Under the pieces are notes generated by a model. That model was not told the DNA's origin. It made no database searches and saw nothing but the letters and a program-made list of their open reading frames with translations. Positions 1,547 to 40,686 of a stretch of DNA of 41,163 nt are shown here, one piece after another (positions within the stretch are counted from its first letter, which is position 1; every line of letters begins with the position of its first letter). The translations under genes were made by a program, and so were the position numbers. Source of the stretch: a virus; the IMG/VR virus record IMGVR_UViG_3300036852_000130, positions 1 through 41,163 of that record; one strand, 5' to 3'.

Positions 1547-1575
1547 AGTCCTGTCTCCTGAGGTAGATAGAAAAG

Positions 1576-1956
1576 TCATTTGCCGTTGCTGCGGCGTTTC
1601 ACTTCGCGTTCCACGCGACGCAGCGTTTTCATGGTCCGTCGATAGGCCGCCGAAGTTGGCGCGAGGGTCTGCAGTTCAAGGGTTGCCTCGCCCGCCATGC
1701 GCTGCAGCGCACGGGTGGGGATATCGCGGAAATGATTCGCGGGAATCGCCTCCGCTTCCACGGCGCGCGTCACACATTCCACCGCGAATTGCACCGGGTA
1801 GGCGAACCCTGACTCTCCGGTGACGTAGCGGCGAAACGTGCGGGCGTCCACGCCGATGCGTTCGGCCATTTCCGCCTGGGCGAGCTGCGCGCGTTCGACC
1901 AGCGCGCGCAGGTAGGCGGGATCATTCTTGAACTGCGCGGGGTTAGGCGTGCTCAC
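1576..1956 (-). CDS. XRE-like helix-turn-helix DNA-binding protein
   Basis: A 126-residue protein. I chose GTG 1956 because it overlaps the stop of the upstream gene as GTGA, as most neighbours do; longer readings only translate that gene in another frame. Residues 16-45 (ERAQLAQAEMAERIGVDART then FRRYVTGES) fit a lambda-repressor/XRE helix-turn-helix. The rest is helical and ends in basic residues. It has no protease or dimerisation domain like CI. As the fifth gene of the leftward operon it could be a Cro-like autoregulator. Binding to the TAGGACA operators is possible but not shown. Confidence 0.75.
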   Translation of the reverse strand: MSTPNPAQFKNDPAYLRALVERAQLAQAEMAERIGVDARTFRRYVTGESGFAYPVQFAVECVTRAVEAEAIPANHFRDIPTRALQRMAGEATLELQTLAPTSAAYRRTMKTLRRVEREVKRRSNGK

Positions 1957-3854: not shown

Positions 3855-3871
3855 TAGGACAAATTGTCCTA
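3855..3871 (-). promoter_or_regulatory. Leftward early promoter with operator copy 2
   Basis: The palindrome TAGGACAAATTGTCCTA is identical to the copy at 17862 and differs from the one at 934 by one base. Read leftward it continues as TGTCCTAAAAT, placing a -10-like TAAAAT at the operator edge. The -35 is weak, so an activator may be needed; a CRP-like palindrome lies about 80 bp further upstream at 3949-3964. This promoter should drive the six genes from 3803 to 992. Confidence 0.75.
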
Positions 3872-3948: not shown

Positions 3949-3964
3949 TGTGACGCTCGTCACA
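3949..3964. promoter_or_regulatory. CRP-like palindrome TGTGA-N6-TCACA
   Basis: TGTGACGCTCGTCACA fits the CRP/Vfr core TGTGA-N6-TCACA exactly. It overlaps the end of the excisionase gene and lies upstream of the leftward promoter at 3855. It could alternatively be a hairpin behind the excisionase gene, but no T tract follows on the minus strand. Confidence 0.4.
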
Positions 3965-4274
3965 TCGGGGGCGGGCTTGAGACGTTGCTAGGCATCGCGC
4001 GCGGCTGACGTTTGCGCGCGCGTTTCGGACCCATCTCTAGCAAGGCACGAATCTGTCTGGCTGTCCAAAAATTGGTGTGCCCAACTTTGTGAGGCGCGGG
4101 CAACTGACCGGAAGCGATGCCGCGATACCAGTGCGAGCGCGACATGGGCACGTATTGCAATACCTCGGCGAGTGTCAGCCAAGTGATCCCGGGTAGATCG
4201 GGCGGGAAGGATCGAACCTGCAGCGACACGCGCGAACGCGGCGCACGCTTGGGGGAAGTCTTGGCGGGTGTCAT
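3960..4274 (-). CDS. AlpA/Xis-like helix-turn-helix protein (candidate excisionase)
   Basis: A 104-residue protein. I chose ATG 4274 because GGAG lies 9 bases upstream. An earlier in-frame ATG at 4283 has no such site. Residues 27-75 (TWLTLAEVLQYVPMSRSHWY, RGIASGQLPAPHKVG, then FWTARQIRALLE) are a classic AlpA/winged helix-turn-helix of the kind used by excisionases and prophage regulators. The C-terminus is basic. It lies immediately downstream of the integrase on the same strand, as recombination directionality factors often do, but a terminator separates them. Confidence 0.75.
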   Translation of the reverse strand: MTPAKTSPKRAPRSRVSLQVRSFPPDLPGITWLTLAEVLQYVPMSRSHWYRGIASGQLPAPHKVGHTNFWTARQIRALLEMGPKRARKRQPRAMPSNVSSPPPM

Positions 4275-4343
4275 GGCGGCCATCTCCGTGTCAGGCGGTG
4301 CCAGTGGGACGCTGGTTGTACCCGCCAATCCCAGAAAAGGAAA

Positions 4344-4363
4344 GGGGGCGCACATGCGCCCCC
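4344..4363 (-). terminator. Terminator after the integrase gene
   Basis: GGGGGCGCA-CA-TGCGCCCCC is a perfect 9-bp stem with a 2-base loop. Leftward transcripts from the integrase run into it and then into TTTCCTTTTC, a T-rich tail. It overlaps a CTATCTA heptamer at 4363. It should uncouple integrase expression from the excisionase candidate downstream. Confidence 0.75.
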
Positions 4364-4394
4364 TATCTATCTCAATACGTATTGCTCTTGAGCG

Positions 4395-5819
4395 TTACCC
4401 ATTCATGTGTGCGGGGTGACGATTGACCTGCGCGGTGGCGAATGCCGCCGCCATGTCCACGCGCGAGGCCGGCAACTGCGCCGCGTTTCCAGCCGCGAGC
4501 ACCGCGTCAATCTCATCCGCCCACCACTGCATCAGGCGCGCGCGTTCCGCCAAGAGCAGCCCACGGTGGGAGCCGTCTTTATCGCGCGTGTAGTGCGCGC
4601 GCACGCCCTCGGTTAGCTTGTGATCCTGCTGGAATTCAAGCGCGTGCTCCTCGGCGCGCGTGACGATATAGCGCGTGTATGCCGTGGTGGCGAACAGCGC
4701 GCGGAACCCGTGCACGGTGATGGCGCCGCGTTCGGCTGTCGTGCCGTCCCAGCCCAGCGCGCGCAGCCGCTGCAGCCACGTCCCCTCGCTGATCGGGTGG
4801 CACTCAGTGTGCCCGCGACCCATGAACCCGGGGAAAAGTAGCGGCGTCTGGCCCGTCACGGACTGCAGTTCGCGCAGTAGCTTGACGACGGTCGACGCCA
4901 GCGGCACGCGATACGGGGCATATGCCTTGCCGCGCATGTCCGCGCGCTTCTCGGTCGTGCGTTGCTTCGTGCCCTCGGTGAACGCTGGCACGATCATCGT
5001 GGCGCCGTGCGGGCCTTCCCACTGAATCCAGTCCCAGCGCGCGGTGCGCAGAATCGACGGGCGGACGGTGAGATACGGCAGCATTTGCAGCGCGAGCTGG
5101 GTGGCGCGTTCGCCCTGACGAACTGCGCGCATGCTCGACACGTCCGCGAAGTACAGCGGCAACTGATCGAGCTGCAGCGCTTCCCAGTGCTGCGAATCGC
5201 GCGGCGTCAGTTTCTCCACCACGCGATGCGCGGGATTCTCGCCACGGTGATGACCCTCGGCGCGCGCGTATTCGTAAAGTTTTTCCAGCGCGTGGGCGAT
5301 CTCGCGGGCGAATGATGGGCTCCGCGTGATCTCAAGGCCCCGGCAGAATTTCAGGACCGCCGGCATATCGAGCGCGTTCAACTTCTCGCGCATCAGCGGG
5401 CGCAAGTCATCGCTGGTCAGGATGCTGTGCGTCCGCGCGCCGTAGGCAGGGCCGACGCGCTGCGCGAACACGGGGAACCAGAGCAGGAATTCCGCGCCCA
5501 GCGTCGCCGAATTCTCGGCGCGGCGTTTCAGTTGCGCCTTGCGAATGCACTGGCCTTGGGCGAGCTGTGACTGCGCGACCTCGAATGCCGCCCACGCCTG
5601 CGCCAGCGTCAACTTGCCGAACTTGCCCAGGGTGTGCGTCTTGGCGACGCCTGCGGCGTTGCGGTAGTTGAATCGAAACGACTTGGCCCCCGTGGGCGAC
5701 ACGAACACGAACAGACCCCGCCCGAGAAAGTTGCGCCATGGCTTGTGGCGCGTCTCAAGGGCGCGGATGTCCTGATCGGTCAGGCAGGGAACGGACTTGC
5801 GAACACTTGCGGATGTCAT
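4395..5819 (-). CDS. int: Tyrosine site-specific integrase, P4-like
   Basis: A 474-residue protein. ATG 5819 has GAGGAG 9 bases upstream; the frame stays open to 5957 but without a site there. Residues 10-85 form the arm-type DNA-binding domain (DUF4102-like: FVFVSPTGAKSFRFNYR, then HTLGKFGKLTLAQA). The catalytic domain spans about 210-435, with Arg at TVRPSIL (R253), the box II H370-x-x-R373 (HGFRALFA), nucleophile Tyr410 in AHYTR, and the C-terminal RLMQWWADEID typical of this family. It integrates and, with a directionality factor, excises the prophage, usually at a tRNA or similar site. All key residues are present, so it should be active. Confidence 0.95.
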   Translation of the reverse strand: MTSASVRKSVPCLTDQDIRALETRHKPWRNFLGRGLFVFVSPTGAKSFRFNYRNAAGVAKTHTLGKFGKLTLAQAWAAFEVAQSQLAQGQCIRKAQLKRRAENSATLGAEFLLWFPVFAQRVGPAYGARTHSILTSDDLRPLMREKLNALDMPAVLKFCRGLEITRSPSFAREIAHALEKLYEYARAEGHHRGENPAHRVVEKLTPRDSQHWEALQLDQLPLYFADVSSMRAVRQGERATQLALQMLPYLTVRPSILRTARWDWIQWEGPHGATMIVPAFTEGTKQRTTEKRADMRGKAYAPYRVPLASTVVKLLRELQSVTGQTPLLFPGFMGRGHTECHPISEGTWLQRLRALGWDGTTAERGAITVHGFRALFATTAYTRYIVTRAEEHALEFQQDHKLTEGVRAHYTRDKDGSHRGLLLAERARLMQWWADEIDAVLAAGNAAQLPASRVDMAAAFATAQVNRHPAHMNG

Positions 5820-6334
5820 TGTCGAAATCTCCTCGGTATGGGTATCGGGGCTCCGGGAATTCCTACTTTTCGTGGGATTCCCAGAGTACGAAACAGCTAC
5901 GCGGGGGACCAACTGACACTCAAGACTGACGTAAGTCACTGAGGGCGTTACAATCAACCGCGTGGCTGATCGAACGCATAGGATGACGATTGCTTATGGG
6001 GATTGCAATCATTTGTCCGGGTAGTGTAGACGGATCAACTGGTTAGCCGACCCTCAGTAGGAATCCCCACGCCCCCCGATTCCTATTCTTATGAGACTCA
6101 CTGAGACGCGCTGAGATTCAGCAAGACTCAGGGACACATTATATATGGCGCAGGCGTCGGCTGGCAGTTACGATCCGACCCGCCCCCCCAGCATCGCCCG
6201 CGTGCTGCGCACTGCGGGAAGCGTCGGGGGTGCGCGTCAAACGATCTCAGAACGCACGTGGGCGACGATGCCCGCCACCCCCGACTTCCGCGCTGGGGTC
6301 GTTCTGACGCGCCCTAAAACGCGAGGGACTGCCA
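5820..6334. promoter_or_regulatory. Regulatory and possible attachment region between integrase and rightward genes
   Basis: A 515-bp stretch with no convincing gene. It holds the integrase ribosome binding site (5829-5834), a GATTGCAATC palindrome (6001-6010), the inverted sequences GTGGGATTCC (near 5872) and GGAATCCCCAC (near 6061) that could be integrase arm sites, and the CTGAGAC iterons at 6093-6130. An AT-rich TATATAT (6140-6146) would suit a rightward -10. I see no tRNA 3' end that would mark attP. Frames open from 6145 to 6330 lack a ribosome binding site. Confidence 0.55.
6093..6130. repeat. CTGAGAC-type iterons, about 10-bp period, site 1
   Basis: Four direct units, GAGACTCA, CTGAGACGCG, CTGAGATTCA and AAGACTCA, are spaced by about 10 bases (starts at 6093, 6101, 6111, 6123), one helical turn. 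They end 10 bases before a TATATAT element. A matching array is at 12181-12210. Confidence 0.65.
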
Positions 6335-6625
6335 TTGACGCCCGAGAACTGCGAACACTGCGGCGAGCCCGTCCTGCCGGCCGAACGCGCCGACAATTCC
6401 CAGCCGTTCCACCACGAATGCATGTTCCGCGTGCTGATGGGATCGGTCGCGCACGTGCTGCGCCGCTGCTCGTGTTTCGTCCCGGGCTCCGAAGAATCGG
6501 ACCCGCCCTTCATGAGCAAACGCAACGCGGCACGCGCCGCGATCCAGACCCAGCGGCTGGTGGATGCGCTGCTCGATCACAACGCGGCAAACCGTGAGGA
6601 ACCCACATGCCCGAAGTCCCATTGA
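6335..6625 (+). CDS. Cys/His-rich phage hypothetical protein
   Basis: A 96-residue protein. The start is TTG 6335 with GAGGG 8 bases upstream. CEHCGEPVLP, FHHEC and the CSCF segment form a probable zinc-binding fold over residues 6-50, followed by a conserved-looking DPPFMSKRNAARAAI. This pattern (CxHCGEPVLP, then HHEC, then CSCxxGxEEDPP) occurs in many unrelated temperate phages as a protein of unknown role. It overlaps the next gene by 19 bases and is first in the rightward cluster behind the iteron region. Confidence 0.7.
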   Translation: MTPENCEHCGEPVLPAERADNSQPFHHECMFRVLMGSVAHVLRRCSCFVPGSEESDPPFMSKRNAARAAIQTQRLVDALLDHNAANREEPTCPKSH

Positions 6626-6810
6626 CGACCGACGAGGCGCGGCGCCACCGCGAATTCTGCGAAGCGGCGATCCTGCGCCAGTTGCACGAGCTGCAGAAAA
6701 TCACCGGGCTCGACATCGCCCGCGTGGAAGTGCTGGTGATCGTGGAAGCCGAATTGCACGAGGAACCGAAGCGCGTGCCGTTCTCCGTGCGCATCGATCT
6801 CGCCGTATGA
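6607..6810 (+). CDS. Small hypothetical protein upstream of HigA-like regulator
   Basis: A 67-residue protein with GAGGAA before ATG 6607. It is helix then strand: an acidic helix (EARRHREFCEAAILRQLHEL) followed by beta-like VEVLVIVEAELHEEPKRVPF. It stops in an ATGA overlap with the HigA-like gene, the position where a HigB or RelE toxin would normally be. It is too short for HigB (about 90 residues) and lacks its basic catalytic residues. I do not recognise it; a novel partner of the antitoxin-like protein is possible. Confidence 0.6.
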   Translation: MPEVPLTTDEARRHREFCEAAILRQLHELQKITGLDIARVEVLVIVEAELHEEPKRVPFSVRIDLAV

Positions 6811-7136
6811 CCAGCCCGAAGCGTGACCCACGGCGGCGCCCGACACATCCGGGCGAGATTCTGCGCGAGGACATGCTGCCCGCGCTCGGGTGGACGCAAG
6901 AACAATTCGCCGCACGTCTCGGGGTTACGCGCGTCACCGTCGCGCGGCTGCTGCTGGAACACGCGGCGATGAGCCCGACGATGGCACTGCGGCTGAATCG
7001 GTTGCTGGGCACGCCCGCCGAAGTGTGGATGGCAATGCAATCCGAGTGCGACATGTGGGACGCACGCCAGAGCGCCGCGACGTTGAACGCCATTCGTCCG
7101 CTGACGGCGCGCGAGCGCGGGCGCCTCCGAAAGTGA
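6807..7136 (+). CDS. HigA/VapI-family XRE regulator (solitary antitoxin-like)
   Basis: A 109-residue protein; ATG 6807 overlaps the upstream stop. RRRPTHPGEILREDMLPALG followed by WTQEQFAARLGVTRVTVARL is the signature of HigA-type antitoxins (HPGEIL, then an XRE helix-turn-helix), at residues 8-50. The following GTPAEVWMAMQSECDMWDA also fits the family. In HigBA modules HigA neutralises the toxin and represses its own promoter. No HigB-like toxin is adjacent, so this copy may act as a regulator or neutralise host toxins. Family assignment is firm; the role is inference. Confidence 0.85.
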   Translation: MTSPKRDPRRRPTHPGEILREDMLPALGWTQEQFAARLGVTRVTVARLLLEHAAMSPTMALRLNRLLGTPAEVWMAMQSECDMWDARQSAATLNAIRPLTARERGRLRK

Positions 7137-7417
7137 ACACCAGGGATTGTATTGCGCGTCGGCGCGCCGCGCCTGTGGATATCTTGCGGGCGTCCCGTGA
7201 GCTGTTTAACGCAACCAGAATTTGCAGTCTTGTTAGGCGTACTCTCTAGCTCTTACGCGCGCGGAGAAAAAGGTTCCCGCGCGCGCGCGCCCGGAGTCTC
7301 AGGGAATACTCCGTAGATACCTCTCACGTATGTAAATACCTGTAGTAGCGGACGCACTTTCGGTGGACAACCGCGAAACGTGCGGCGATGCACACACAAG
7401 ATATGGGGGTAGATAGC
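7137..7417 (+). promoter_or_regulatory. Intergenic regulatory stretch
   Basis: A 281-bp stretch without a convincing gene. It contains an alternating GC run at 7278-7291, GGAGT/ACTCC arms (7293-7312) around a GAGTCTCAG that mirrors the iteron sequence, and an imperfect hairpin (about 7352-7384, CGCAC-TTTCG paired with CGAAA-C-GTGCG). It ends in the CTATCTA-class heptamer TAGATAG at 7410, between the GGGGG ribosome binding site and the start codon of the next gene. Promoters are likely here but none is clear. Confidence 0.45.
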
Positions 7418-7672
7418 ATGCAGCAGCCCGCACTGATGACGCTCGACGAGGCGCGCAAGAAGTTTCCGCCGATATGGACGATCTACGAGAACCCACGCGA
7501 CTACCCGGGCAAGTGGGTCGTGCGAATGTGGTGGGGTGAAAACCCGGAGCCCGATGCGGGCGTATGCGATTCGCTGGAGCTGGCGCGCGAGCTGATCCAG
7601 CGCGCGGGCGGATGTTTCTGCCTCAATCGCAGCCCGGCCGACGATCCGGCCATCGCCGAGAGCTGGATTTAG
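7418..7672 (+). CDS. Phage hypothetical protein (WTIYENPRDYP family)
   Basis: An 84-residue protein. ATG 7418 lies 8 bases after GGGGG; upstream ATGs at 7388 and 7403 are possible but poorly spaced. The core IWTIYENPRDYPGKWVVRMW followed by LELARELIQRAGGCFCLNR is a compact alpha/beta domain seen in many phages and prophages as a conserved protein of unknown role. The TAGATAG heptamer occupies the space between ribosome binding site and start, so a protein bound there could block translation signals or the transcript start. Confidence 0.7.
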   Translation: MQQPALMTLDEARKKFPPIWTIYENPRDYPGKWVVRMWWGENPEPDAGVCDSLELARELIQRAGGCFCLNRSPADDPAIAESWI

Positions 7673-7755: not shown

Positions 7756-8017
7756 GACACTTGTCCTGTCTCCGAGTGCCGACACTGCCCCGGCTGCTGC
7801 TCATCCACGCCTTAAGGCTTCTCCCGATTGTTAGCTAGCTAGTCCTGTGCACCCACGACAGTCATCGACTTTGACGGTTAAACAATCACTCCTAACTGCT
7901 TGAGTATCGCCGTAAAGTCTTTACGGCACGTTCATTCACCTGTAAGAATCCTCCCGCTCTGGGTGGCTACTCGCTTGCTTCGCCACCCTTTGAGACAAGG
8001 ACAAGGGGAAGTCTCGC
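7673..8017 (+). promoter_or_regulatory. Promoter region of the 8018-11192 operon
   Basis: A 345-bp gap. It includes a TAGCTAGCTA palindrome (7833-7842), a plausible sigma70-type promoter with TTGACG at 7871 and TAACTG 16 bases later, and the palindrome GCCGTAAA-GTC-TTTACGGC (7909-7927), suited to a dimeric regulator just downstream of the promoter. Ribosome binding site AAGGGGA precedes GTG 8018. No rightward gene is seen in it. Confidence 0.55.
7909..7927. promoter_or_regulatory. Palindromic operator candidate GCCGTAAA-N3-TTTACGGC
   Basis: A perfect 8-bp inverted repeat with a 3-base centre, about 90 bp before the 8018 gene. In RNA it would be a stable hairpin, but no T tract follows, so I favour a protein operator. 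The helix-turn-helix product of the next gene is a natural candidate autoregulator. Confidence 0.55.
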
Positions 8018-8464
8018 GTGCCATTTTCCGAGCGGATGCTCGCGCAGCTACGCGCCAAGGGCGATAAACGACTCCTGACCACCGCCGAGGTGCGGTCGCT
8101 CACCGGAATTTCGCGCCAAAAGTGGCAGCGATTCGGGCGCAACCCAGACTTTCCCGTGCGTCGTCATGTCGGCCGGCAGTGGTGCGTCAACGCCCACGAG
8201 CTGGCGCAGTTCCTTGAAAATCTGAACTCCATTCACCGGGCCATGACGATCAGCGAAATTGCCATCTTCGCGCGCATGACTACCTACACGCTCAACGATC
8301 TCATCGCCAACGGCGGCTTTCCCAAGCCCATTGGCATGCTCAACGGTCGACAGCGATACGCGCGCGCCGACATCGAGGCGTGGCAGACCGAACGACTTGG
8401 CGGGCTCGCGCCACCGGATAGCGGCGGGCCCAAGAAGGCCAAAAAAAAAAATGACGCGGGGTAA
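8018..8464 (+). CDS. Protein with two tandem AlpA-like helix-turn-helix domains
   Basis: A 148-residue protein; GTG 8018 follows AAGGGGA by 8 bases. Residues 18-66 (LLTTAEVRSLTGISRQKWQR, then NPDFPVRRHVGRQWCVNAHE) and 74-124 (MTISEIAIFARMTTYTLNDL, then GGFPKPIGMLNGRQRYARAD) each look like an AlpA/MerR-type winged helix-turn-helix. The C-terminus is Lys-rich. A single chain with two such domains could bind an inverted repeat as a monomer, for example at 7909-7927. It opens the operon running to 11192, suggesting an early transcription activator or repressor. Confidence 0.8.
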   Translation: MPFSERMLAQLRAKGDKRLLTTAEVRSLTGISRQKWQRFGRNPDFPVRRHVGRQWCVNAHELAQFLENLNSIHRAMTISEIAIFARMTTYTLNDLIANGGFPKPIGMLNGRQRYARADIEAWQTERLGGLAPPDSGGPKKAKKKNDAG

Positions 8465-8676: not shown

Positions 8677-8909
8677 CGCCCGGCGACGAACTGCGCCTCG
8701 CGCGAGCCAAAGCGCGCTGCGAACAGGCCGGCAAGTTGCTGCGCCGTTCAATGCACTTCGCCGCCGCGTCCGCCGTGTTCGGCCTCACGGCCGGCGCGCT
8801 GATGGTCTGGCGCCGTGACATCGAGGGCGCGTGGCTGCTGATCGGCGGCGCGTTCTGGTTGAACTTCGCGAGCGCGCGCTACAGCCGCCGCGCGCGGGAG
8901 CTGCTGTGA
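8673..8909 (+). CDS. Small membrane protein with two predicted helices
   Basis: A 78-residue protein beginning MTPGDELRLARAKARCEQ. Two hydrophobic segments, residues 29-45 (AAASAVFGLTAGALMV) and 53-67 (AWLLIGGAFWLNFAS), are joined by a short charged loop (WRRDIEG), with basic ends, so both termini should lie in the cytoplasm. Size and topology resemble a class II holin, but the position in an early operon far from any lysin makes that doubtful. Overlaps both neighbours by 4 bases. Confidence 0.65.
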   Translation: MTPGDELRLARAKARCEQAGKLLRRSMHFAAASAVFGLTAGALMVWRRDIEGAWLLIGGAFWLNFASARYSRRARELL

Positions 8910-9577
8910 CTCGCCAGTGTCTGCGGCCGGAACTCGCCGCCATCGTGCCGCCGCGCATGTGCCAGCGGCCCGTCGACCATCGCGGCTACACGGTGCCGTG
9001 GTTCGTCGAATGGATCGACGGCAAGCCCGACTTCCGCGTGATGGACCGCCGCAAATTTTTCCTCGCGCTCAAGAATCGGCTTTGCTGGCTGTGCGGCGAA
9101 AAACTCGGCGTGTTCATGACGTTTTGCATCGGGCCGATGTGCGTGGTGAATCGGATCACCAGCGAGCCGCCGTGCCACCTGGAATGCGCCGAGTACGCCG
9201 CGAAGGGCTGCCCGTTTCTCACGATCCCCACCGCGAAGTACCGCACGCCGAATCTGCCGGAAGGCTGGTCTGAAACGCCGGGCATGCTGCAACACAACCC
9301 CACTGCCTGCGCGCTCTACACCACGCGGAAATACACCGCGCAGCGCGTGCACGATGGCGAAAATGAGGGCGTGCTGCTCCAGCTCGGCGAACCCGAGACG
9401 ATCACCTTTTGGCACCGGGGACGCCTCGCGACGCGCGAGGAAACTCTCGCCGCGATGAACGTCGGGCTTCCGCACTTGCGGGCCGCTGCTGAATCGGACG
9501 GGCCGGACGCCGTGGAGCTGCTGGAAAAACGACTGCAGTACGCGCAGCGCTATCTGCCGGCGGAAGTGCCGGCATGA
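8906..9577 (+). CDS. Cys-rich conserved phage protein
   Basis: A 223-residue protein from GTG 8906, overlapping the previous stop as GTGA. Residues 50-115 carry a cluster of Cys/His pairs (CWLCGEKLG, CIGPMCVVNRIT, CHLECAEYAAKGCPFL), probably binding two zinc ions. The C-terminal part (TITFWHRGRLATREETLAAM and ELLEKRLQYAQRYLP) is helical. This arrangement occurs in many temperate phages as a conserved protein of unknown function within early operons. Related proteins are sometimes located near replication genes, but none are recognisable here. Confidence 0.75.
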   Translation: MTRQCLRPELAAIVPPRMCQRPVDHRGYTVPWFVEWIDGKPDFRVMDRRKFFLALKNRLCWLCGEKLGVFMTFCIGPMCVVNRITSEPPCHLECAEYAAKGCPFLTIPTAKYRTPNLPEGWSETPGMLQHNPTACALYTTRKYTAQRVHDGENEGVLLQLGEPETITFWHRGRLATREETLAAMNVGLPHLRAAAESDGPDAVELLEKRLQYAQRYLPAEVPA

Positions 9578-9858
9578 ATCCCGTGGCCGTCAATCCTACG
9601 CTCGCGCACCTGCTGGAAGTGCAAGCCGCGCTGCTCGACGCCTATCTATCGCAGAACCTCGGCAAGCGCTTCGCGTATGTCATCTACGTGGTGCCGACCG
9701 ATCTCTCCGGGCCCGTGGCCGGCGTCAGCAACTGCCACGCCCCCCTCGTTGAAGAAGGCGCGGACTTCGCCGTGCGCCAGCTCGCGCAACTGACGCCGGG
9801 CGCCGTGATCGAGGTCGACGCCACGCCGCGCACCGTGCAAGGACTGCCCCGTGCCTGA
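9574..9858 (+). CDS. Hypothetical protein
   Basis: A 94-residue protein whose ATG overlaps the previous stop. It starts with a helix (LAHLLEVQAALLDAYLSQNL) and continues with beta-like FAYVIYVVPTDLSGPVAG and a C-terminal VIEVDATPRTVQG. The stretch Y-L-S near residue 24 is encoded TAT CTA TCG and contains one of the dispersed heptamers (9642). I do not recognise a family. It overlaps the next gene by 8 bases. Confidence 0.65.
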   Translation: MNPVAVNPTLAHLLEVQAALLDAYLSQNLGKRFAYVIYVVPTDLSGPVAGVSNCHAPLVEEGADFAVRQLAQLTPGAVIEVDATPRTVQGLPRA

Positions 9859-10126: not shown

Positions 10127-10370
10127 CATCGTCTCCGACGCCGAGGAAGGCGCCGTCCGCCGCGTCATGACCGCCACGGCGAAAGTCTTGCAGCGCGAGC
10201 TGCGCGAGATTAGTGAGGGAGACCGCGTGGTGCTGCTGATCACGCTGCCACCTGGGCGGCAGGGTCGCGTGCACGCACTCGGCGACTTCTCGGACGCCTA
10301 CGAGCTGCGCAACTTCCTCGAATACGTGCTCAAGAACATGGACGGTGAAAAAACCGTGTGGACGCCATGA
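10116..10370 (+). CDS. Hypothetical protein
   Basis: An 84-residue alpha/beta protein: an N-terminal helix (EEGAVRRVMTATAKVLQREL), a strand (RVVLLITLPPG) and a C-terminal helix (YELRNFLEYVLKNMDG). No known motif. It overlaps the previous gene by 11 bases and the next by 4. Function unknown; the composition matches its neighbours, so it is a genuine operon member. Confidence 0.6.
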   Translation: MTPNIVSDAEEGAVRRVMTATAKVLQRELREISEGDRVVLLITLPPGRQGRVHALGDFSDAYELRNFLEYVLKNMDGEKTVWTP

Positions 10371-10561
10371 GACGAGACCGCGAAGCCCAAGAGCCCGAGA
10401 CGCGCGTCGGCATTTGCTGGGGCTGCCAGTCTGACGCCATGGCGCTGTTCAAGGTGCCATCTATCTACCGCTACCGCTGCGCCGATTGCTTCGAGCGGGA
10501 GACCGGCTTCCGTCACCACCTCTCACCGCCGCGCGAACATCCGCGCATTGTGTTGCCATGA
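10367..10561 (+). CDS. Small zinc-ribbon protein
   Basis: A 64-residue protein starting MRRDREAQEPE, ATG overlapping the previous stop. CWGC at residues 17-20 and CADC at 37-40 form a two-knuckle zinc ribbon separated by a short loop (FKVPSIYRYR). The CTATCTA heptamer at 10461 falls in the S-I-Y codons. The ribbon may bind nucleic acid or RNA polymerase, but no partner can be named. Confidence 0.65.
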   Translation: MRRDREAQEPETRVGICWGCQSDAMALFKVPSIYRYRCADCFERETGFRHHLSPPREHPRIVLP

Positions 10562-12805: not shown

Positions 12806-13023
12806 GAACCGTGGGCCAGCAAATCGCGCTGATGCGTTACAACGCCGAGCGTTGCGAGAAGTCGAAATACCCGCGTTGCGCGTGCGCGTGCGGCGGCACA
12901 AAACACGGACAGCCGCACGGGGCCGACTGGATCAGGGAACAGGAGACGCGCATCCGCGAGCTGATTTCCGACGACCTGCGGGCGAAGGAAACGGCGGAAG
13001 GCCGGCCGGGGCTATTCCCGTGA
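12802..13023 (+). CDS. Small Cys/His-rich phage protein
   Basis: A 73-residue protein, ATG overlapping the previous stop. CACACGGTKHGQPHG is a compact Cys-Gly-His motif known from short phage proteins of unknown role (often written CxCxCGGxxHG). The rest is helical and charged (WIREQETRIRELISDDLRAK). It ends in a GTGA overlap with the next gene. Zinc binding is likely; function unknown. Confidence 0.65.
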   Translation: MRTVGQQIALMRYNAERCEKSKYPRCACACGGTKHGQPHGADWIREQETRIRELISDDLRAKETAEGRPGLFP

Positions 13024-31823: not shown

Positions 31824-32224
31824 TGGCCGCCGTACCGCCATGGTTGGAGGCGCAGTTCGGTTGCATCCTGCGCGACAGCGCCGCATTTCAATCGCTGTTG
31901 CGGACGCAGCTCTCGGCGACTCTCCCGTCGCCGTTGGTCTCGCGCAAGGCCGACACCTCGGCGGCGGTGCAAATCAATTTTGAACTCGACATGGACAACG
32001 TGCAGATCACGGCGTGGCAGCAGTGGACTACCTACGACCTGTTTGACGCGTCGCTGCCGTTCGTGATCCCGATCCCGTGGGGCACCGTGATTGTGGGCGC
32101 GCACGCGCGGCTGCTGGAAGCGTGGCAGGCGACGCGTGTCGATTCGTTCCGCTGGAGTGTCACGGGCGTCATGGAAATCGAGCGCGCGTCTCTGCCGCCG
32201 TTCTCGGGAGGCGTCGGTGCCTGA
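31823..32224 (+). CDS. Minor tail protein
   Basis: A 133-residue protein from GTG 31823, which shares its first base with the tape measure stop. VPPWLEAQFGCILRDSAAFQ opens a helical segment; the rest is beta-rich with many Trp and Tyr (VQITAWQQWTTYDLFDASLP). No family recognised. Its position between tape measure and tail-tip genes, with overlaps at both ends, suggests a distal tail or tip component. Confidence 0.65.
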   Translation: MAAVPPWLEAQFGCILRDSAAFQSLLRTQLSATLPSPLVSRKADTSAAVQINFELDMDNVQITAWQQWTTYDLFDASLPFVIPIPWGTVIVGAHARLLEAWQATRVDSFRWSVTGVMEIERASLPPFSGGVGA

Positions 32225-32747: not shown

Positions 32748-33254
32748 ATGCCCGCGAACTTTGACAGCGCCTTCAATCTCTGGCTGACGCAACACGGCAG
32801 CGAGCGCTCGGCCGCTGTCAACGTGCTCGACTTCCGACACCCGAAGTGGGGTTCCGTCATCGTCAGCGATTACGGCGAGCCGTTTCGCGCGCGCGATGAA
32901 CTGGGCGTGGAATTCGTCGCCGAGCCGCTCGCGTTCACTATCGACGTGGCGGCCGACAACGTGACCACCGAACAGCGCGTGCTCATCAAGCTAGACAACG
33001 TGAACGGCGCCGTGGCGAACAAGCTGCGCGAGCTGACGGACGAGGATTTACAGACTGCCGTGCAAGTCATCTACACCGTGTACCTCGACACCGAGGCGCA
33101 GGCGCCGCAAATCGATCCGCTGCTGCTGTACGTGACGGGCGTCGGCCTATCTAGACTCATCGCCGAAGTGGAAGCGTCCGCCGACCTGCTGCCGAACGTC
33201 AGCTCGGGCATTCGCTACACCATCGACAACTTCCAACCGCTGCTGTACCTATGA
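32748..33254 (+). CDS. DUF1833 family tail protein
   Basis: A 168-residue protein. VNVLDFRHPKWGSVIVSDYG, VEFVAEPLAFTIDVAADNVT and QPLLYL fit DUF1833, a tail-tip family always found before the NlpC/P60 and J-like genes. It is probably the equivalent of lambda gpL in the tip complex. G-L-S-R codons at 33147 (GGC CTA TCT AGA) are extremely rare codons here and hold a heptamer. It overlaps the next gene by 4 bases. Confidence 0.85.
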   Translation: MPANFDSAFNLWLTQHGSERSAAVNVLDFRHPKWGSVIVSDYGEPFRARDELGVEFVAEPLAFTIDVAADNVTTEQRVLIKLDNVNGAVANKLRELTDEDLQTAVQVIYTVYLDTEAQAPQIDPLLLYVTGVGLSRLIAEVEASADLLPNVSSGIRYTIDNFQPLLYL

Positions 33255-33682
33255 CCGAAGATCCCAGCAACGCCATGATCTTGATCGGCGTGCGATACAC
33301 GCGCGGCGGCGAGACGCCGGCTGACGGCTTCGACTGCTTCACGCTGATGCAGTACGTGCGCCGCCGATATTTCAATCGTTCCACACCCATCGTCGGCATC
33401 CCGGCGACCGCCATGCCGAGTGCGCGCGCCGCCGCGTTCGCGATCTATCGCACGCTCGGCGGAAAAGAGCGCATCGAAAGCGACTGGCACGAATCCGCGC
33501 CCGTGCAAGGCGCAGCGGTCGCCATGGGTCAGTGGAAAGTCTCACGGCTTCACCACTGCGGCGTGGTGATCAACGACGGCGTTTTGCACGCGCTCGAACA
33601 CGCGGGCGTGGTCTGGACGCCGTTTCCCCGCCTGATTTCCCTGTACGCCCGCGTGGAGTGTTTCGAGTGCGCCAGCTCATAG
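33251..33682 (+). CDS. NlpC/P60 tail assembly peptidase (K-like)
   Basis: A 143-residue protein. DGFDCFTLMQYV gives the catalytic Cys (C29) and HHCGVVINDGVLHALEH the His (H102) and downstream polar residue of the NlpC/P60 fold. It corresponds to lambda gpK C-terminal domain and helps tail tip assembly and local peptidoglycan opening during infection. No separate JAB domain is fused. It overlaps the tail-tip gene by 16 bases. Confidence 0.88.
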   Translation: MTEDPSNAMILIGVRYTRGGETPADGFDCFTLMQYVRRRYFNRSTPIVGIPATAMPSARAAAFAIYRTLGGKERIESDWHESAPVQGAAVAMGQWKVSRLHHCGVVINDGVLHALEHAGVVWTPFPRLISLYARVECFECASS

Positions 33683-36600
33683 TCATCAGCGACCCGTTCA
33701 AGCGCGAGCGCCACGAATACGAGCTGCGCGCGGGCGAGACGTTGGCGAACGCGCTCATGCGCATATGGCCGGGCGGGCTGCGCGGCTCTTGGCGCGTCTA
33801 TCGGGGAGAAGTCAACGAGGACAACGAAATCGCGGCGGTCGATCTCCCGTATGTGATGGTGCTGCCGAATGACAGCTATTTCATTGTGCGCACGCCGGAA
33901 GGCGCCGCCTTCTTCGCGGACTTCGCCATTGCGCTGTTTTTCTCGCTCGCGACGCAAGCGCTGGCGCCGAAACCGCCGCGCATTCGCCCGTCCGACCCGG
34001 ACCTGATCTCGCCTAACAACCAGATTGCGGGCCAGAGCAATACGCTGCGCCCAGGGGCGCGCGTGCCGGACATCATGGGACGCGTGCGCGCCTTCCCGGA
34101 CTTGCTGTGTCATCCGGTCGACGTTTACAACGAAAGCAACCAGACCATCGGGCAAATGTTCGTGTTAGGCGTCGGTGGCTACGCTGTCACGGAAGCCAAG
34201 CTCGGCGAGACGCCCATCAGCAGCATTCAAGGCGCTGACCTGGAGGTGTACCTGCCCGGCGAGGAAGTGCCGCCGTTTTTCGTGGTCAAGTCGTCGCGCG
34301 AAGTTCTCGACGTGTCGCTGCTGTCCGGGGAAACGGGCGCCGTGCCGATCTCTGGCGAAGTGGACTTCGCCGCTGGCCCCAAGACGATGACCACGGAGGA
34401 AATTCTTCCCATCGCGCCGGGCGCCCCGATCACGATCACCGGCACGTTTTTCAATAACGCCGTGTTCTGGGTCGACGGCGTGCCGCCGGCCTCGCAGCTC
34501 ACGCCGCCTTTCGTGTATCAGCTCGACGGCCCCGTGGTCGACGAGCTGGGCGCCAATCCTTCGCTCGCGCAGGCGACCGAAGCGTTGCAGTTGCAGCTAA
34601 ATATCTACTACGGCAACGGCGGCCCGTTCGCATGGACGACACCGGGCGGCGACGAGAAACAGGTGCAATTCGGGTATGGCTGGCCTGGAAAAGACCTCAT
34701 CCCGAAAGTCGGTCAGTTGCTGGAACTGACCATCATCGCCACGGGGCAGCGCTGGCGCGGACGAATCTCTCAGGTGCAGTGGCCGCTCGGTGGTCGTGCG
34801 GCCTTCTGGGGCCTCACGATGCAAGACCTGTACGGCAATTCGCAGTCCTTCCCCACGCTCTCGAAAAAGAAGTCTACCTACCTCGCGTTTGACGAATCGA
34901 GCCCAGCCGGTGGCACAGCGCCGCCTCCGCCGGGAGGTTTGAGCAATTCGCCGACGACTTGGTACGCGGTTCCGATGGCGGACCCCGAAGAGATATGGGT
35001 CGACATCGCCTTCCCGCAGGGCTTGGCCTTCTACGATCAAGGTTCGCGGCGCCCGTTGGATATCGAGATAAAGGCGGAATTTCGCCGCGCGGGCGTGATC
35101 GACGCGCAGGCCAGCCTGCTGGTGCATTTTTTCTACGCCACATCCTCGCCGATGCGCTTCACTCGCCGCGTCAGCGTGGCACTTCTCGCGCTGCCGCCGG
35201 GTTCCCCCACCATCGAAATCCGCTTGACGCGCACCACGCCGTTTTTAGTGGACACGGCGAGCAAAAACTACGTGCAGGAGACCCGCTGGGTGCGGCTCGC
35301 TGGCGTGCGGCAACTGGTCGGGCAGACCTACCCGACATCGACCGTGATGGCGTACACGATGAGCAACAGCCGTGGCACCAGTGCTGTCGGTGACATGGCG
35401 CTCAACGTCATCGCGACGCGCATCCTGCCGAGCTGGAACGGCTCGGGCTGGGACCCGCCCGCGCCGACCACGCGCTGGGCGGACAATTTCGTCGCGCGCT
35501 GCAAAGCGGTCGACGGCGCGAACCGCACCGACGCGGAACTTGACCTTGACGGCATTTACGCGCTGCAGGCGGAACTCGATTCTTTCGACGAGGGGGCGCA
35601 AGGCATGATCAGCCTGACCCTCGATCAGATGCAGGATATCGACTCGGAGCTGGCGCAGCTCGGCGACATCGTGCGGGCCGTGGTCTCACGCGTCGGGCGA
35701 AAGCTATTCGTCACGCGCGACCAGACTAACAACAACACCATCGCACTTTTCAATCCGCGCACCAAGGCGCCGGACGGCGAGACCATCAAGATGCGCATGA
35801 CCGGTGACGCGGACAACGATTGCGTCATCGTCACGTGGGTTGATTCGCAGATGGCGTGGAAGCAGCGCGACTACAAATATCCCGAAGAGTCACTCGCGTT
35901 CAACCCGCTGCGCATCAGCGCCATTCAGGCCAATTGGCAGATGGCGTACCGCCGGGCGCTGTTTGAGTGGAACCGCCTCAAATATCGCCGCGAGCAACTG
36001 TCCTGCCAAGTCACCGAGGACGGGCGAATCTGCCGACCGGGTGACGTGGTGAACTTCACCGATGACACGGCGAACCTCGCCCAGACGGCGGGCGAAGTCG
36101 TGATCGTTGCCGACAATTTGCTCACGCTGGATCGCAACGTGCTGTTCCTGCCGGGCGAGACGTACTCGATTCTGCTGCGCGACGTGCAAGGCATCGCCAT
36201 CGATACAGTGCCGTGCATCGAAGTGCCGGGCTCGCCCGACATGGTGCAGTTAGAGCGCTCGCCAACCGTGCAGATTCAAGGCCGCAGCACCGTGCGCGGC
36301 ACGCTGTTCGCCTTCTTCCGCGATTCAGCCGCGAACGTGCGTCCGTGGCTCGTCACGGCGACCACGCTCAACGGCCCGTATGTGCAGATTTCCGCCGTCA
36401 ACTATTCCACGAAGGTCTACGCGGGCGACTCGGCGCCGATGCCGGGTCCGCCGCCTGTCGAGGGAGTCACACCACCGCCGACGCCGCCGCCCGGGCCTCC
36501 TGAAACCATCAGCCTGAGTTCCTTGTCGGTAATGAATTTTGATCCCGGCATGGTGAGCGTGGTCTATCGTCTAACTAGCACCGGCAACGTTGAAGGGAAT

Positions 36601-36864
36601 GACGGCACGTCGGCCGTCATTGACCGGGGCGATTGGATCAGCCCGCAGCAAAATTTCGGCGCGTACTCGGTGCGCGCGTATCCGAACGCTGGCACGGCGC
36701 CGGACGGCTCGCCCTTGGGCGTATGGCTACCCTTGGATGTCACGCGAGAGTGGTCCCTAACTTCTAGCACCTTCAATTACTCGGGCCTTCTCGTCCAGAT
36801 TCAATACAACCCGACGGGCGCCATTGTGGCCTCGGCGACCGTTGGCTTCACGCTGCACTCATGA
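33667..36864 (+). CDS. Tail tip/host-specificity protein (J-like)
   Basis: A 1065-residue protein. GTG 33667 has GGAG 8 bases upstream and overlaps the NlpC gene; I rejected the start at 33532, which only re-reads that gene. A small beta-grasp domain (RERHEYELRAGETLANALMR, residues 9-60) like gpI fused to the N-terminus precedes the hub. A hydrophobic stretch (FFADFAIALFFSLATQALA) follows, then the central hub region (HKLT-like folds, residues 300-850) and fibronectin-like/Pro-rich C-terminal segments (GPPPVEGVTPPPTPPPGPPE). It forms the central tail fibre hub and contributes to receptor binding. Confidence 0.88.
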   Translation: MRQLIVISDPFKRERHEYELRAGETLANALMRIWPGGLRGSWRVYRGEVNEDNEIAAVDLPYVMVLPNDSYFIVRTPEGAAFFADFAIALFFSLATQALAPKPPRIRPSDPDLISPNNQIAGQSNTLRPGARVPDIMGRVRAFPDLLCHPVDVYNESNQTIGQMFVLGVGGYAVTEAKLGETPISSIQGADLEVYLPGEEVPPFFVVKSSREVLDVSLLSGETGAVPISGEVDFAAGPKTMTTEEILPIAPGAPITITGTFFNNAVFWVDGVPPASQLTPPFVYQLDGPVVDELGANPSLAQATEALQLQLNIYYGNGGPFAWTTPGGDEKQVQFGYGWPGKDLIPKVGQLLELTIIATGQRWRGRISQVQWPLGGRAAFWGLTMQDLYGNSQSFPTLSKKKSTYLAFDESSPAGGTAPPPPGGLSNSPTTWYAVPMADPEEIWVDIAFPQGLAFYDQGSRRPLDIEIKAEFRRAGVIDAQASLLVHFFYATSSPMRFTRRVSVALLALPPGSPTIEIRLTRTTPFLVDTASKNYVQETRWVRLAGVRQLVGQTYPTSTVMAYTMSNSRGTSAVGDMALNVIATRILPSWNGSGWDPPAPTTRWADNFVARCKAVDGANRTDAELDLDGIYALQAELDSFDEGAQGMISLTLDQMQDIDSELAQLGDIVRAVVSRVGRKLFVTRDQTNNNTIALFNPRTKAPDGETIKMRMTGDADNDCVIVTWVDSQMAWKQRDYKYPEESLAFNPLRISAIQANWQMAYRRALFEWNRLKYRREQLSCQVTEDGRICRPGDVVNFTDDTANLAQTAGEVVIVADNLLTLDRNVLFLPGETYSILLRDVQGIAIDTVPCIEVPGSPDMVQLERSPTVQIQGRSTVRGTLFAFFRDSAANVRPWLVTATTLNGPYVQISAVNYSTKVYAGDSAPMPGPPPVEGVTPPPTPPPGPPETISLSSLSVMNFDPGMVSVVYRLTSTGNVEGNDGTSAVIDRGDWISPQQNFGAYSVRAYPNAGTAPDGSPLGVWLPLDVTREWSLTSSTFNYSGLLVQIQYNPTGAIVASATVGFTLHS

Positions 36865-37086: not shown

Positions 37087-40000
37087 ATGGCTACCTACCT
37101 CGGTCGATTTCAGATTCTCGCCAAGCCGGAGAGTGAATGGTCCTCGGCAAACCCGGTCCTGCTCAACGGCGAATTCGGCGTTGCCGACACGGGCTCGAGT
37201 TTCCCCGTGCTCAAAGTGGGCGACGGCGTGCGACCGTGGACCGTGCTGCCGGCCATCGTGGGCGGCGGTGGTGCGCCACAAGGCATGTACGTCGTCGGCA
37301 CCACCACGACATTGCCGCCCGGCTCGTTCGCCACCGTCGTCATCGATAACGGCGTATCGCCGCCCACGATCAGCTTCGGCATTCCGGCCGGGCCTGCGGG
37401 TCCGCCCAACACGCTGAGCATTGGCACGACCACGACCGGCGCGCCGGGCACGCCCGCGAGCGCGACCATCACGGGCACGGCACCGAATCAGACGTTGAAC
37501 TTGGTGATCCCGCGTGGCGACCCGGGTATTCCCGGCGAACAGGGCGCGGACGGCGCGACGGGTCCTGTGGGGCCTCCCGGCCCGCCGAACACACTGACCA
37601 TTGGCACGGTGACGGCGAGCCCTCCCGGCGATCCCGCTGATGCGTCGATCACCGGCACAGCGCCGAATCAGGTGCTCAACCTCGTTCTGCCGCGCGGCGA
37701 TCCGGGCCCGCCGGGGCCTCCGGGCTCCGTGAGCTTTGCAAACCCGACTGCGCTTGTCGGTCTCGCTGCTGTCAACGGATCGAGCACGGACGCGATGCGC
37801 TCGGACGCCGCGCCCGCACTGTCGCAGGCGATCATTCCGACATGGACCGGGGCGCATACGTTCAACGCCGCCGTGAACTTCGCCAGCCTGTTCCTGCTCG
37901 CGGGCGCCGCAGGCATCGCCGGGCAGGTGCTCGCATCGCAGGGCACGGGATTGCCAGCTCAGTGGATAACTCCGTCGACGGGAACACCGGGCGGAGCGAA
38001 CACGCAGATTCAGTACAACAATGCCGGGGCCTTCGCGGGCAGCGCGTTGTTCACCTGGAACGATGGCGCCGCCACGCTTTCGGTCGGCAGCTCGGCGGTG
38101 CCGCCGTTCATCACCACGCCGTCGACCGCTGGCGCCGGCACTACGTTGACCTTGCAGGCGGGCGCCGCCACGGGCGCGGGCAACGCGGGAGGCATGACCG
38201 ACATTCAGGGAGGCGTGCCGGCCGATGGCAACGGCGGACATGTGCGGATCAATGCGCGTCCTGGCGTTGGCACGAATCGGGGCGGCGGCGATCTCTATCT
38301 CAATTCCGGTGCGAACACGGGCACGGGCGTCGCCGGCAGCGTGATCATCACCGTGGGAGGCATCGCCACTGGCACGCAGGGCGCTTTCAACGTGCGTACG
38401 GGCACGGGTGCAGTAGATAGACTTTTCATCAACGGCAACGGGTCTTGGGGCCTCGGCGCGGCGGCGACGGTGGGCACCTCGGGGCAAGTGCTGACTTCGC
38501 AGGGAGCCGCGCCGCCCATCTGGTCAACGCCAGCGGGTGGTGCCCCGGGCGGCTCCAACACTCAGGTTCAATACAACGCCTCGGGGGCTTTCGCAGGCAG
38601 TGCGGGTCTGACGTATGACGCGGGCACCTCGACGTTGCAGATTCAGGGAAATAGCAACGTCTGGGGCACCGAGATATGGCCCAACGGCTCGCAGGCCACG
38701 CCGACCACCGGGCAGACGCTCAACATGGCGGCCAACAAGCGCTACCTGTATCTCGTGCCTGCCGGTACACTCGCCACGCTCACGGTGAATCTACCGGCGA
38801 GCCCCGTTGACGGCCAAGTCGCCGGCATCCTAACTACACAGACCATCACAGCGATCACCATCGGTGCGCAAGGCGGCGGCTCTGTCACAACCTCCGTCAC
38901 CTCGCTGCCGGCGAATACCGCCGTGCACTTCATGGCCTTTTCGGGAGTTTGGCGGCAATGGAGCGGAGTCGTCGCGGGCGGCGGCGGCGGCACGCCGGGC
39001 GGCGCCAACACGCAGATTCAATACAACAGCGCGGGCGCGTTCGCCGGCAGCGCGAAATTCACGTGGGACAACACAGGTGGCGGCACGCTGACGTTCGGTA
39101 ACGCGGGCAATCAGACGATGGTCACCGCCGTTACCGGCGCCGATTTTCGCATTCAGGGCGCGAACGGTGCTCCGGGCAGTGCTCTGGTGCTGCTCGGCGG
39201 GCAAGGGACTGGCTCCGGAAATGGCGGGTTGTTAGACCTGCGCGGCGGCGCCGTCGCCGGAGCCACCGCAGTTCCTGGCGGCGTGTCGATCAGGGGCGGC
39301 GGGAGCGCCTCCAACGCGACCGGTGGCGTCGTTACCATCCAGGGTGGCGACGGCGAAGGTGCCGGCAACAATGGCGGTGCTGTCACGATCAGTGGCGGAC
39401 AATGCAACGGCGTGGGCGGTGGCGGCGGCGCGCTCACTTTGCAGGGTGGCGCGCCGGCCGCCGACGCTAACGGTGGCATCGTCCTAATCAATGGGCGCGC
39501 GGGCGTTGGCACGAATCGCAACGGTGGCGCCGTCAGCATTTCGGGCGGCGTGAACACCGGCACCGGCATTGGGGGCAACGTAACTATTACGGCTGGCGCC
39601 GCCGCGACCGGCACGAATGGCTATCTACTGTTCCGCACCGGCAATGGATCGCCGGACAGGCTCTACATCAATGGCAACGGATCGTGGGGTCTTGGGGCCG
39701 CCGCCACGGTCGGCACATCCGGGCAAGTGTTGACCTCGCAGGGCGCCGCGCCGCCAATCTGGACCACGCCATCGGGGGGCGTCACGCCCGCCGCGCTCAC
39801 GCGAGTCGACGACACCAACGTCACGCTGACGCTCGGCGGCACGCCTGCCACGGCGCTCCTACAGGCAACGTCGCTCACGCTGGGCTGGACTGGCACGTTG
39901 GCGGTCGCACGCGGTGGAACGGGCGCGGGCACGTTGACGGGGTACGTGAGGGGCAACGGCACTTCCGCGTTCACGGCGGTCGCCACCATCCCATATTCCG

Positions 40001-40686
40001 ACATCACGGGCGGGCCAGCCGCTGTAACGGGCGCGAACCCCACGGCCACGATTGGTCTTGCTGCCGTCAACGGCAGCGCCGGGACGTTCATGCGCAGCGA
40101 CGCGGCTCCGCCGCTGTCGCAGGCCATCGCGCCGACGTGGACGGGCGCTCATCAGTGGACGGGGAATGCAAACCCGGTTCGCATGGCTCACGACACCGCA
40201 TTTATCTCGTTTTACAACTCCGCCAATAGCACGCGCACCGGCTATCTACAGTTGAACGTGGGCGCGGCTTCCGTGCTTGCCATCGAACAGAATCAGGCGA
40301 TGCAATTTCATTTGAACGGCGCCCTTCGGTTCACGTTCTCCGCCGCAGGCGCGTTCACGGCTACGGCGGGCATTGTCGCTACTACGGGCTCGTTCAGCAG
40401 CACGGGGTCGTTCGGCGGTCAGTGCAGCGCCGGGAGTTTCCAGACCACCTCGCAGCGCGCTCTCAAGCGCGAGACCGGCCGGCTGTCCGGAGTCGCGGAT
40501 GTGCTCGCGCGCCTGCGGCCGCTGCTCTATCGACTGCTGGATGGCGATGACCGTGAACAATTAGGGCTCATCGCGGAGGAAGTACATGAGGTATGCCCGC
40601 AGCTCTCGGACGGAAAAACCGTTGCCTATGATCGGCTGGCGCTGCTGCTGCTGGCCGATTGGCAGGCGCAGCGTGCTGCGGCTTGA
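37087..40686 (+). CDS. Long tail fibre with Mtd_N-like start and S74 chaperone end
   Basis: A 1199-residue protein. Residues 1-55 (WSSANPVLLNGEFGVADTGS, then LKVGDGVRPW) resemble the Mtd_N attachment domain. Residues 90-220 have collagen-like GPP and PGIP segments. The shaft holds repeated blocks, including three copies of GANTQIQYN-AGAFAGSA and two of NGNGSWGLGAAATVGTSGQV. The last 90 residues (SQRALKRETGRL, then LGLIAEEVHEVCPQL) form a peptidase S74 intramolecular chaperone, whose Ser-Lys dyad (SQRALK) would cleave itself after trimer folding. Two heptamers (39621, 40242) and one in reverse (38414) lie within. Confidence 0.9.
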   Translation: MATYLGRFQILAKPESEWSSANPVLLNGEFGVADTGSSFPVLKVGDGVRPWTVLPAIVGGGGAPQGMYVVGTTTTLPPGSFATVVIDNGVSPPTISFGIPAGPAGPPNTLSIGTTTTGAPGTPASATITGTAPNQTLNLVIPRGDPGIPGEQGADGATGPVGPPGPPNTLTIGTVTASPPGDPADASITGTAPNQVLNLVLPRGDPGPPGPPGSVSFANPTALVGLAAVNGSSTDAMRSDAAPALSQAIIPTWTGAHTFNAAVNFASLFLLAGAAGIAGQVLASQGTGLPAQWITPSTGTPGGANTQIQYNNAGAFAGSALFTWNDGAATLSVGSSAVPPFITTPSTAGAGTTLTLQAGAATGAGNAGGMTDIQGGVPADGNGGHVRINARPGVGTNRGGGDLYLNSGANTGTGVAGSVIITVGGIATGTQGAFNVRTGTGAVDRLFINGNGSWGLGAAATVGTSGQVLTSQGAAPPIWSTPAGGAPGGSNTQVQYNASGAFAGSAGLTYDAGTSTLQIQGNSNVWGTEIWPNGSQATPTTGQTLNMAANKRYLYLVPAGTLATLTVNLPASPVDGQVAGILTTQTITAITIGAQGGGSVTTSVTSLPANTAVHFMAFSGVWRQWSGVVAGGGGGTPGGANTQIQYNSAGAFAGSAKFTWDNTGGGTLTFGNAGNQTMVTAVTGADFRIQGANGAPGSALVLLGGQGTGSGNGGLLDLRGGAVAGATAVPGGVSIRGGGSASNATGGVVTIQGGDGEGAGNNGGAVTISGGQCNGVGGGGGALTLQGGAPAADANGGIVLINGRAGVGTNRNGGAVSISGGVNTGTGIGGNVTITAGAAATGTNGYLLFRTGNGSPDRLYINGNGSWGLGAAATVGTSGQVLTSQGAAPPIWTTPSGGVTPAALTRVDDTNVTLTLGGTPATALLQATSLTLGWTGTLAVARGGTGAGTLTGYVRGNGTSAFTAVATIPYSDITGGPAAVTGANPTATIGLAAVNGSAGTFMRSDAAPPLSQAIAPTWTGAHQWTGNANPVRMAHDTAFISFYNSANSTRTGYLQLNVGAASVLAIEQNQAMQFHLNGALRFTFSAAGAFTATAGIVATTGSFSSTGSFGGQCSAGSFQTTSQRALKRETGRLSGVADVLARLRPLLYRLLDGDDREQLGLIAEEVHEVCPQLSDGKTVAYDRLALLLLADWQAQRAAA

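Follow-up and report, generated by a model that had tools for sequence, protein, structure and literature searches.

The window analysed here is the whole of virus record IMGVR_UViG_3300036852_000130 (IMG/VR; 41,163 nucleotides), a siphophage genome with genes for a large terminase, a major capsid protein, a tape-measure protein and tail proteins, in which genes and gaps alike are interspersed with a short word. The heptamer CTATCTA, TAGATAG on the opposite strand, is found at 19 exact sites starting between positions 1564 and 40242 (12 CTATCTA and 7 TAGATAG on the plus strand). Our recount thus confirms the number and the excess reported in an earlier note made from the letters alone. An order-2 Markov model predicts 0.44 sites, and the heptamer ranks first among the 7-mers of the window (z ~28). 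Genes hold 17 sites; 500 synonymous-codon shuffles preserving proteins and codon usage gave a mean of 0.73 and a maximum of 4, and shuffling gene by gene a mean of 1.38 and a maximum of 6. Both maxima, obtained on 49 genes hand-drawn from the list of open reading frames (one of them entered with a start out of frame), are below the at least 10 sites that the earlier note had set as the level telling against it. The rarity of related words was also found as described: TATCTA is preceded by another base 3 times, and the sister words CTATCTG, CTATCTC and CTATCTT occur 3, 4 and 2 times. The use of the frames TAT-CTA and GTA-GAT-AG was recovered too, with tallies slightly different from those reported (TAT-CTA 8 times and not 7, readings of the Ser-Ile-Tyr type 2 and not 3). 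The even spread attributed to the sites holds weakly for the 19 heptamers (coefficient of variation 0.57, P ~0.01), and not for the larger family to which they belong (P = 0.75).

What the earlier note missed is that the heptamer belongs to a broader asymmetric motif, T[AT]G-N-TAG, with 47 strict sites on both strands of the window: TAGATAG (19), TTGTTAG (10), TAGTTAG (8), TAGCTAG (5) and TAGGTAG (5). When single positions are changed, T[AT]G-N-TAG forms are in excess, and most other one-letter variants are near expectation. Same-strand TAG pairs number 37 at a gap of 1 bp, against a mean of 2.3 over gaps of 2 to 30 bp, and the excess is confined to the 1-bp gap in seven phages (37 vs 2.3, 28 vs 2.9, 28 vs 1.6, 74 vs 11.5, 23 vs 3.8, 12 vs 1.9 and 25 vs 2.9). 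No fixed positions flank the 7-mer in 363 sites from eleven phage sequences. The inverted arrangement CTA-NN-TAG was considered as a second signal and discarded, being almost wholly made of TAGNTAG preceded by C, as are most CTANNTAG cases. With the excess restricted to one gap, flanks free and the inverted form accounted for, what remains is a sharply defined, asymmetric word of 7 bp. A tetranucleotide microsatellite was rejected as well, the triple TAGNTAGNTAG being almost absent.

In genes, the CTA form occupies all three phases (6, 10 and 8 sites), and the TAG-sense form almost only the phases free of stops. Outside genes the two orientations are balanced (7:6). That genes prefer the CTA form is hence due to stop codons, and no explanation at the transcript level is needed. 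These data support the view that the word acts as DNA. The earlier claim that selection acts on DNA is borne out by the occupation of all permitted phases and both strands, by counts exceeding the shuffle null about 20-fold, and by the maintenance of the word both in sister phages and in a second lineage.

Sister siphophages (66-97% identity) carry the same word at densities of up to 4 per kb. TAGNTAG and TTGTTAG number 28 and 12 in G001 (about 90% DNA identity where aligned), 28 and 16 in G002, whose capsid, terminase and portal proteins show 66-79% identity, and 74 and 19 in L025/G012 (in 23 kb). In the regions aligned with G001, 27 of the 42 window sites are unchanged (64%), 14 are lost and one is replaced by another word of the family; in the opposite direction, 7 G001 sites are lost. 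At several window sites, two letters of the word are changed in the sister. Density is therefore kept while single sites turn over. Some sites are old, as judged from the large terminase gene. The site at 20518-20524 (TAGATAG, minus strand), where Tyr-Leu is encoded with the rare codon CTA, occupies the same codon position in 8 of 13 aligned clade sequences, window included, most of those terminases being 70-76% identical to that of the window. In the same gene, TTGTTAG at 20666-20672 (plus) is common to L003/L017, G001 and L019, and TTGTTAG at 20799-20805 (plus) is replaced by TAGTTAG in L023, L024, L026, L028 and G002. The latter site is likewise old, and the interchange supports counting both forms as one word. 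In the portal tree, word-bearing siphophages make up one group of 11 (support 82/88), leaving aside L171 and L164, which passed a simple density cut-off; L171 has 7 TAG pairs at the 1-bp gap against 21 at the 3-bp gap, and L164 only 3 at the 1-bp gap. The word is lacking in neighbours whose portals are 62-70% identical, and 63 contigs with portal identity of at most 50% (769 kb) feature 99 pairs at the 1-bp gap vs 103 at the average other gap. In the siphophage G011, the terminase of which is 70% identical, TAGNTAG is absent over 32 kb. Among siphophages, the word is thus restricted to one clade.

The word recurs in a lineage with an unrelated backbone. A search with the 84-aa protein encoded at 324-578 identified four loci, L235 to L238, all showing an excess of TAG pairs; tail genes place L235 with the siphophages. 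G1239, G1240 and G1241 (48, 30 and 49 kb) encode no relative of the terminase, portal or capsid of the window, and the G1239 terminase is at best 44% identical to known ones, from phages of Microcystis and Rhizobium. A giant protein of 2,400-2,800 aa and the overall layout suggest that the three are podoviruses. Their TAG pairs at the 1-bp gap number 23 (vs 3.8), 12 (vs 1.9) and 25 (vs 2.9), respectively, and two of the three have TAGATAG as their highest-ranked 7-mer; L248 is a fourth word-bearing member. Podoviruses and siphophages share tail-fibre segments, the 324-578 protein, a nuclease and, in part, the gene pair 11189-11851/11883-12167. A 567-aa protein (59-71% identity) is common to G1239 (L239 9653-11353, minus strand), G1240, G002 and G012, and has no match in Pfam, PHROG or phage collections. 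The word is absent from L249/G1243, whose terminase is 85% identical to that of G1239 and which has 4 pairs at the 1-bp gap, as at other gaps, and still hosts the 324-578 protein and tail-fibre segments. The GC content of L249/G1243 is 54%, vs 62% in G1239, as if the host had recently changed. The Rhizobium phage RHph_N65 also lacks the word.

The remaining window sites are listed here by position. Those conserved in G001 include, on the minus strand, TAGTTAG at 304-310 (upstream of gene 324-578), 17369-17375 (gene 17300-17788), 21078-21084 (intergenic), 36571-36577 (tail protein gene 33679-36864) and 38830-38836 (gene 37087-40686); TAGATAG at 4363-4369 (between genes 3960-4355 and 4395-5957), 10461-10467 (gene 10358-10561), 16890-16896 (gene 16177-17334), 28110-28116 (gene 27398-28396), 31689-31695 (tape-measure gene) and 33147-33153 (gene 32748-33254); and TTGTTAG at 12417-12423 (gene 12338-12805), 16694-16700 (gene 16177-17334), 34013-34019 and 35726-35732 (both in gene 33679-36864). 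On the plus strand they are TAGATAG at 1564-1570 (within the minus-strand gene 992-1579), 11979-11985 (minus-strand gene 11883-12167) and 18114-18120, just upstream of gene 18129-18590, probably the terminase small subunit as judged by position; TAGTTAG at 27222-27228 (gene 26612-27385) and 28397-28403 (directly 3' of gene 27398-28396); and TTGTTAG at 21787-21793 (gene 21355-21981). The cluster TTGTTAGCTAGCTAG at 7828-7842 holds four overlapping family words, and G001 has TAGTTAG at the same place. In the major capsid gene, TAGATAG at 22794-22800 (plus) is read GTA-GAT-AG, G001 having GTG-GAC-AG, and TAGATAG at 9642-9648 (minus; gene 9574-9858) is absent in G001. Further sites are TTGTTAG at 7230-7236 (plus, intergenic) and 39229-39235 (plus, gene 37087-40686); TAGATAG at 7410-7416 (plus, gene 7388-7672), 14396-14402 (minus) and 14633-14639 (plus), within and at the end of gene 14139-14639, 26674-26680 (minus, gene 26612-27385), and 38414-38420 (plus), 39621-39627 (minus) and 40242-40248 (minus), all in gene 37087-40686; TAGGTAG, always on the minus strand, at 8280-8286 (gene 8018-8464), 12207-12213 (intergenic), 32028-32034 (gene 31823-32224), 34874-34880 (gene 33679-36864) and 37091-37097 (gene 37087-40686); and TAGTTAG at 11364-11370 (minus; minus-strand gene 11189-11851). 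The intergenic CTAGCTAG at 12261-12268 carries TAGCTAG on both strands.

Other features of these genomes were recorded along the way. A ParB-like protein (15470-16180) adjoins an ATPase (phrog_11143; 15470-17334 in all), the nearest relative of which is in Pasteurella phage Pmp13 (56%). Genes at 6145-7136 are likely a toxin-antitoxin pair of the HigBA type, given a helix-turn-helix (HTH) antitoxin match, and have a relative in G1241. The perfect palindrome TAGGACAAATTGTCCTA is found at 3855-3871 and 17862-17878, with a partial match near 943; its core occurs twice in G001, and neither in G002 nor in podoviruses. This sequence is a better candidate than the heptamer for a true repressor operator. 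GAGCTC is strongly over-represented in G002 (L014-L016; about 102 sites in 41.6 kb) and L041, probably as a consequence of the frequent Glu-Leu codon pair GAG-CTC. No tRNA gene or tRNA-type attachment site was found, and an Rfam search gave no match.

The word could be read genome-wide by a DNA-binding protein of the phage, such as a stoperator-like repressor, a partition protein or a nucleoid-like organiser. We consider this unlikely, though the distribution of the word among siphophages follows one phage clade, and the window encodes plausible candidates: HTH proteins at 8018-8464 and 6804-7136 and, by inspection, at 11189-11851, the ParB-like protein, and the 13020-13442 product, which is small, rich in Cys and probably zinc-binding, and for which relatives were found in word-bearing phages only. 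This last protein has no clear relative in the podoviruses. The ParB-like protein, which the earlier note had put forward for testing, is excluded as a necessary reader, since the word-bearing G002 has no detectable homologue of it. The pair 11189-11851/11883-12167 also occurs in G011 and G1243, both word-free, its distribution reflecting phage lineage rather than the word; the HTH-like 11189-11851 product is 29% identical to its counterpart in word-bearing G002 and 32% to that in word-free G011. The 324-578 protein was rejected because it is found in word-free L249/G1243 and G011 as well, gene 8831-9577 because it has homologues in word-free phages, and gene 7388-7672 because its homologue loci L143 and L144 lack a clear excess. 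Within the limits set by fragmentary contigs, no detectable gene is both carried by every well-covered word-bearing phage and lacking from the word-free G1243 and G011. The balanced orientation of the word also argues against a phage reader, and the analogy with the stoperators of phage L5, proposed earlier, is not supported. The likeness is in dispersed asymmetric sites, about 30 per temperate genome. Stoperators have a 13-bp core, lie predominantly in one orientation relative to transcription and are bound by a co-evolving repressor (PMC6550527). In contrast, the phage word is 7 bp long with no flanks, lies mostly in genes at up to 4 per kb, shows no orientation bias, is tracked by no repressor that we could see and recurs in phages of an unrelated lineage. 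Stoperators thus fit poorly in length, orientation and phylogeny. Nor do the sites match a parS/ParB system, in which a phage ParB would accompany them.

Three further explanations were considered. A mutational or repair bias of the host, for instance one tied to a methyltransferase as has been proposed for HIP1 of cyanobacteria, would create the word in all DNA replicating there, and would suit its presence in unrelated phages, in genes and gaps and on both strands, as well as its high turnover. It is improbable, because most one-mismatch neighbours are near expectation and the sites with two letters changed relative to the sister imply that whole 7-mers must be built; moreover, no host genome with the word was found among those sampled. 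HIP1 resembles the phage word in being very dense and dispersed over genes and gaps. In the account given by PMC4390886, it is a palindrome residing in host chromosomes and linked to methyltransferases. The phage word is asymmetric, unlike iterated palindromes of this type, and has so far been seen only in phages. A little less probable still is a modification system marking the DNA of these phages, either a host methyltransferase or an anti-restriction mark, with the word as its target and sites gained because modification protects. Type III and BREX-like methylation typically targets short, asymmetric words, but phages normally avoid such sites rather than gain them, and no methyltransferase domain was recognised in the window proteins scanned, one match named DNA methyltransferase falling on the ParB-like N-terminal domain. 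Finally, TAG and CTA are rare in high-GC coding DNA and AT-rich clusters could inflate counts; expected values are indeed tiny, and the broad T[AT]GNTAG is denser in gaps (13 sites in 5.6 kb) than in genes (40 in 35.6 kb). Such a composition or codon artefact is hardly credible and was rejected, as the excess is limited to the 1-bp gap, survives shuffles keeping protein and codon usage, and is missing from the 63 related contigs.

Asymmetric, dispersed words with no flanks are read by machines travelling along DNA or by asymmetric binders, and dispersed words under selection usually reveal a genome-wide machine, as with RecBCD and Chi, FtsK and KOPS, or uptake receptors. We favour, at somewhat less than even confidence, a polarity-reading factor encoded by a host common to several unrelated phages. 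Selection on DNA would maintain the density of the word as individual sites come and go. A host-encoded reader is preferred because no phage gene was seen to track the word. Tail-fibre segments common to both lineages suggest a shared host, and two unrelated backbones that trade such segments, each with word-free near relatives, are better accommodated by a factor of that host than by one of the phage. In its most specific form, the proposal is that of a Chi-like signal, met on linear phage DNA by a helicase-nuclease of the RecBCD/AddAB type, which would be switched by the word from destroying DNA to sparing or recombining it. Chi-like action specifically is rather unlikely. Among known systems Chi comes closest in behaviour: it is similarly short, asymmetric and dispersed in genes and gaps on both strands, needs no flanks, and counts by density over position. 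The failure of Pfam and PHROG scans of the genes tested to recognise a Gam- or Exo/Beta-like gene, many small genes having no match at all, would weakly fit a phage in need of Chi-like protection. DNA uptake sequences of Neisseria and Haemophilus are comparable as dispersed short words, kept by selection at about 1 per kb; they are longer than the phage word and chromosomal, and no sampled chromosome over-uses the latter.

Several observations weigh against a host reader, and against Chi-like action in particular. Known Chi sequences are G-rich and over-represented in the host, where they occur about once per 3-5 kb (in E. coli, about once per 4.5 kb; PMC5959072). The phage word is A+T-rich, TAGATAG, TAGTTAG and TTGTTAG holding two G in seven, and its density of up to 4 per kb is far above that of Chi in E. 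coli. Over-representation in a host was sought in sampled genomes, among which the phages' own host may be missing. In 299 genomes of Pseudomonadota, TAGWTAG is less frequent than its reversed control or, at most, about as frequent, and it is rarer than control in 32 genomes of the family holding the nearest prophage; TAGTTAG is below its control in 200 Burkholderiales genomes. An excess of the word in host chromosomes was accordingly rejected for all sampled genomes. Conservation of sites in G001 (64%) does not differ significantly from that of matched 7-mers (53-55%). Related tail-fibre segments occur in the word-free G1243 as well, and their sharing alone does not prove one host. A phage gene could also be the reader if too diverged to be detected, or changed in specificity. 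When prophages were sought by terminase, the best identity was 51% in 399 Burkholderiales genomes. The order to which G005, a Xanthomonas, belongs gave no match in 250 genomes at a cut-off of 1e-150, and the class of G006 (321 genomes) yielded the seed genome (48%) and no other; among the matches listed in a broad genome scan, identity reached at most 50%. The suggestion of a host recombination or segregation motif made in the earlier note is still the best fit, with the reservation that no sampled bacterial genome over-uses the word.

A search of the literature for the word returned nothing relevant. Dispersed words under selection are of a known kind; what is new, as far as searched, is the word itself, its presence in two lineages and its seeming confinement to phages. 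It is possible, though doubtful, that unrelated soil phages with a common host have each come to fill their genomes independently with a heptamer that a host machine reads as 'self' or 'spare this DNA', which would be a new A+T-rich Chi-like or licensing signal made of a direct repeat of TAG. Phage genomes alone suffice to reveal the word, and each of the two unrelated lineages has close word-free relatives that serve as natural controls. The word offers a handle for identifying the host and the protein reading it, and a test of whether phages adapt the whole genome to one DNA-processing enzyme of the host.

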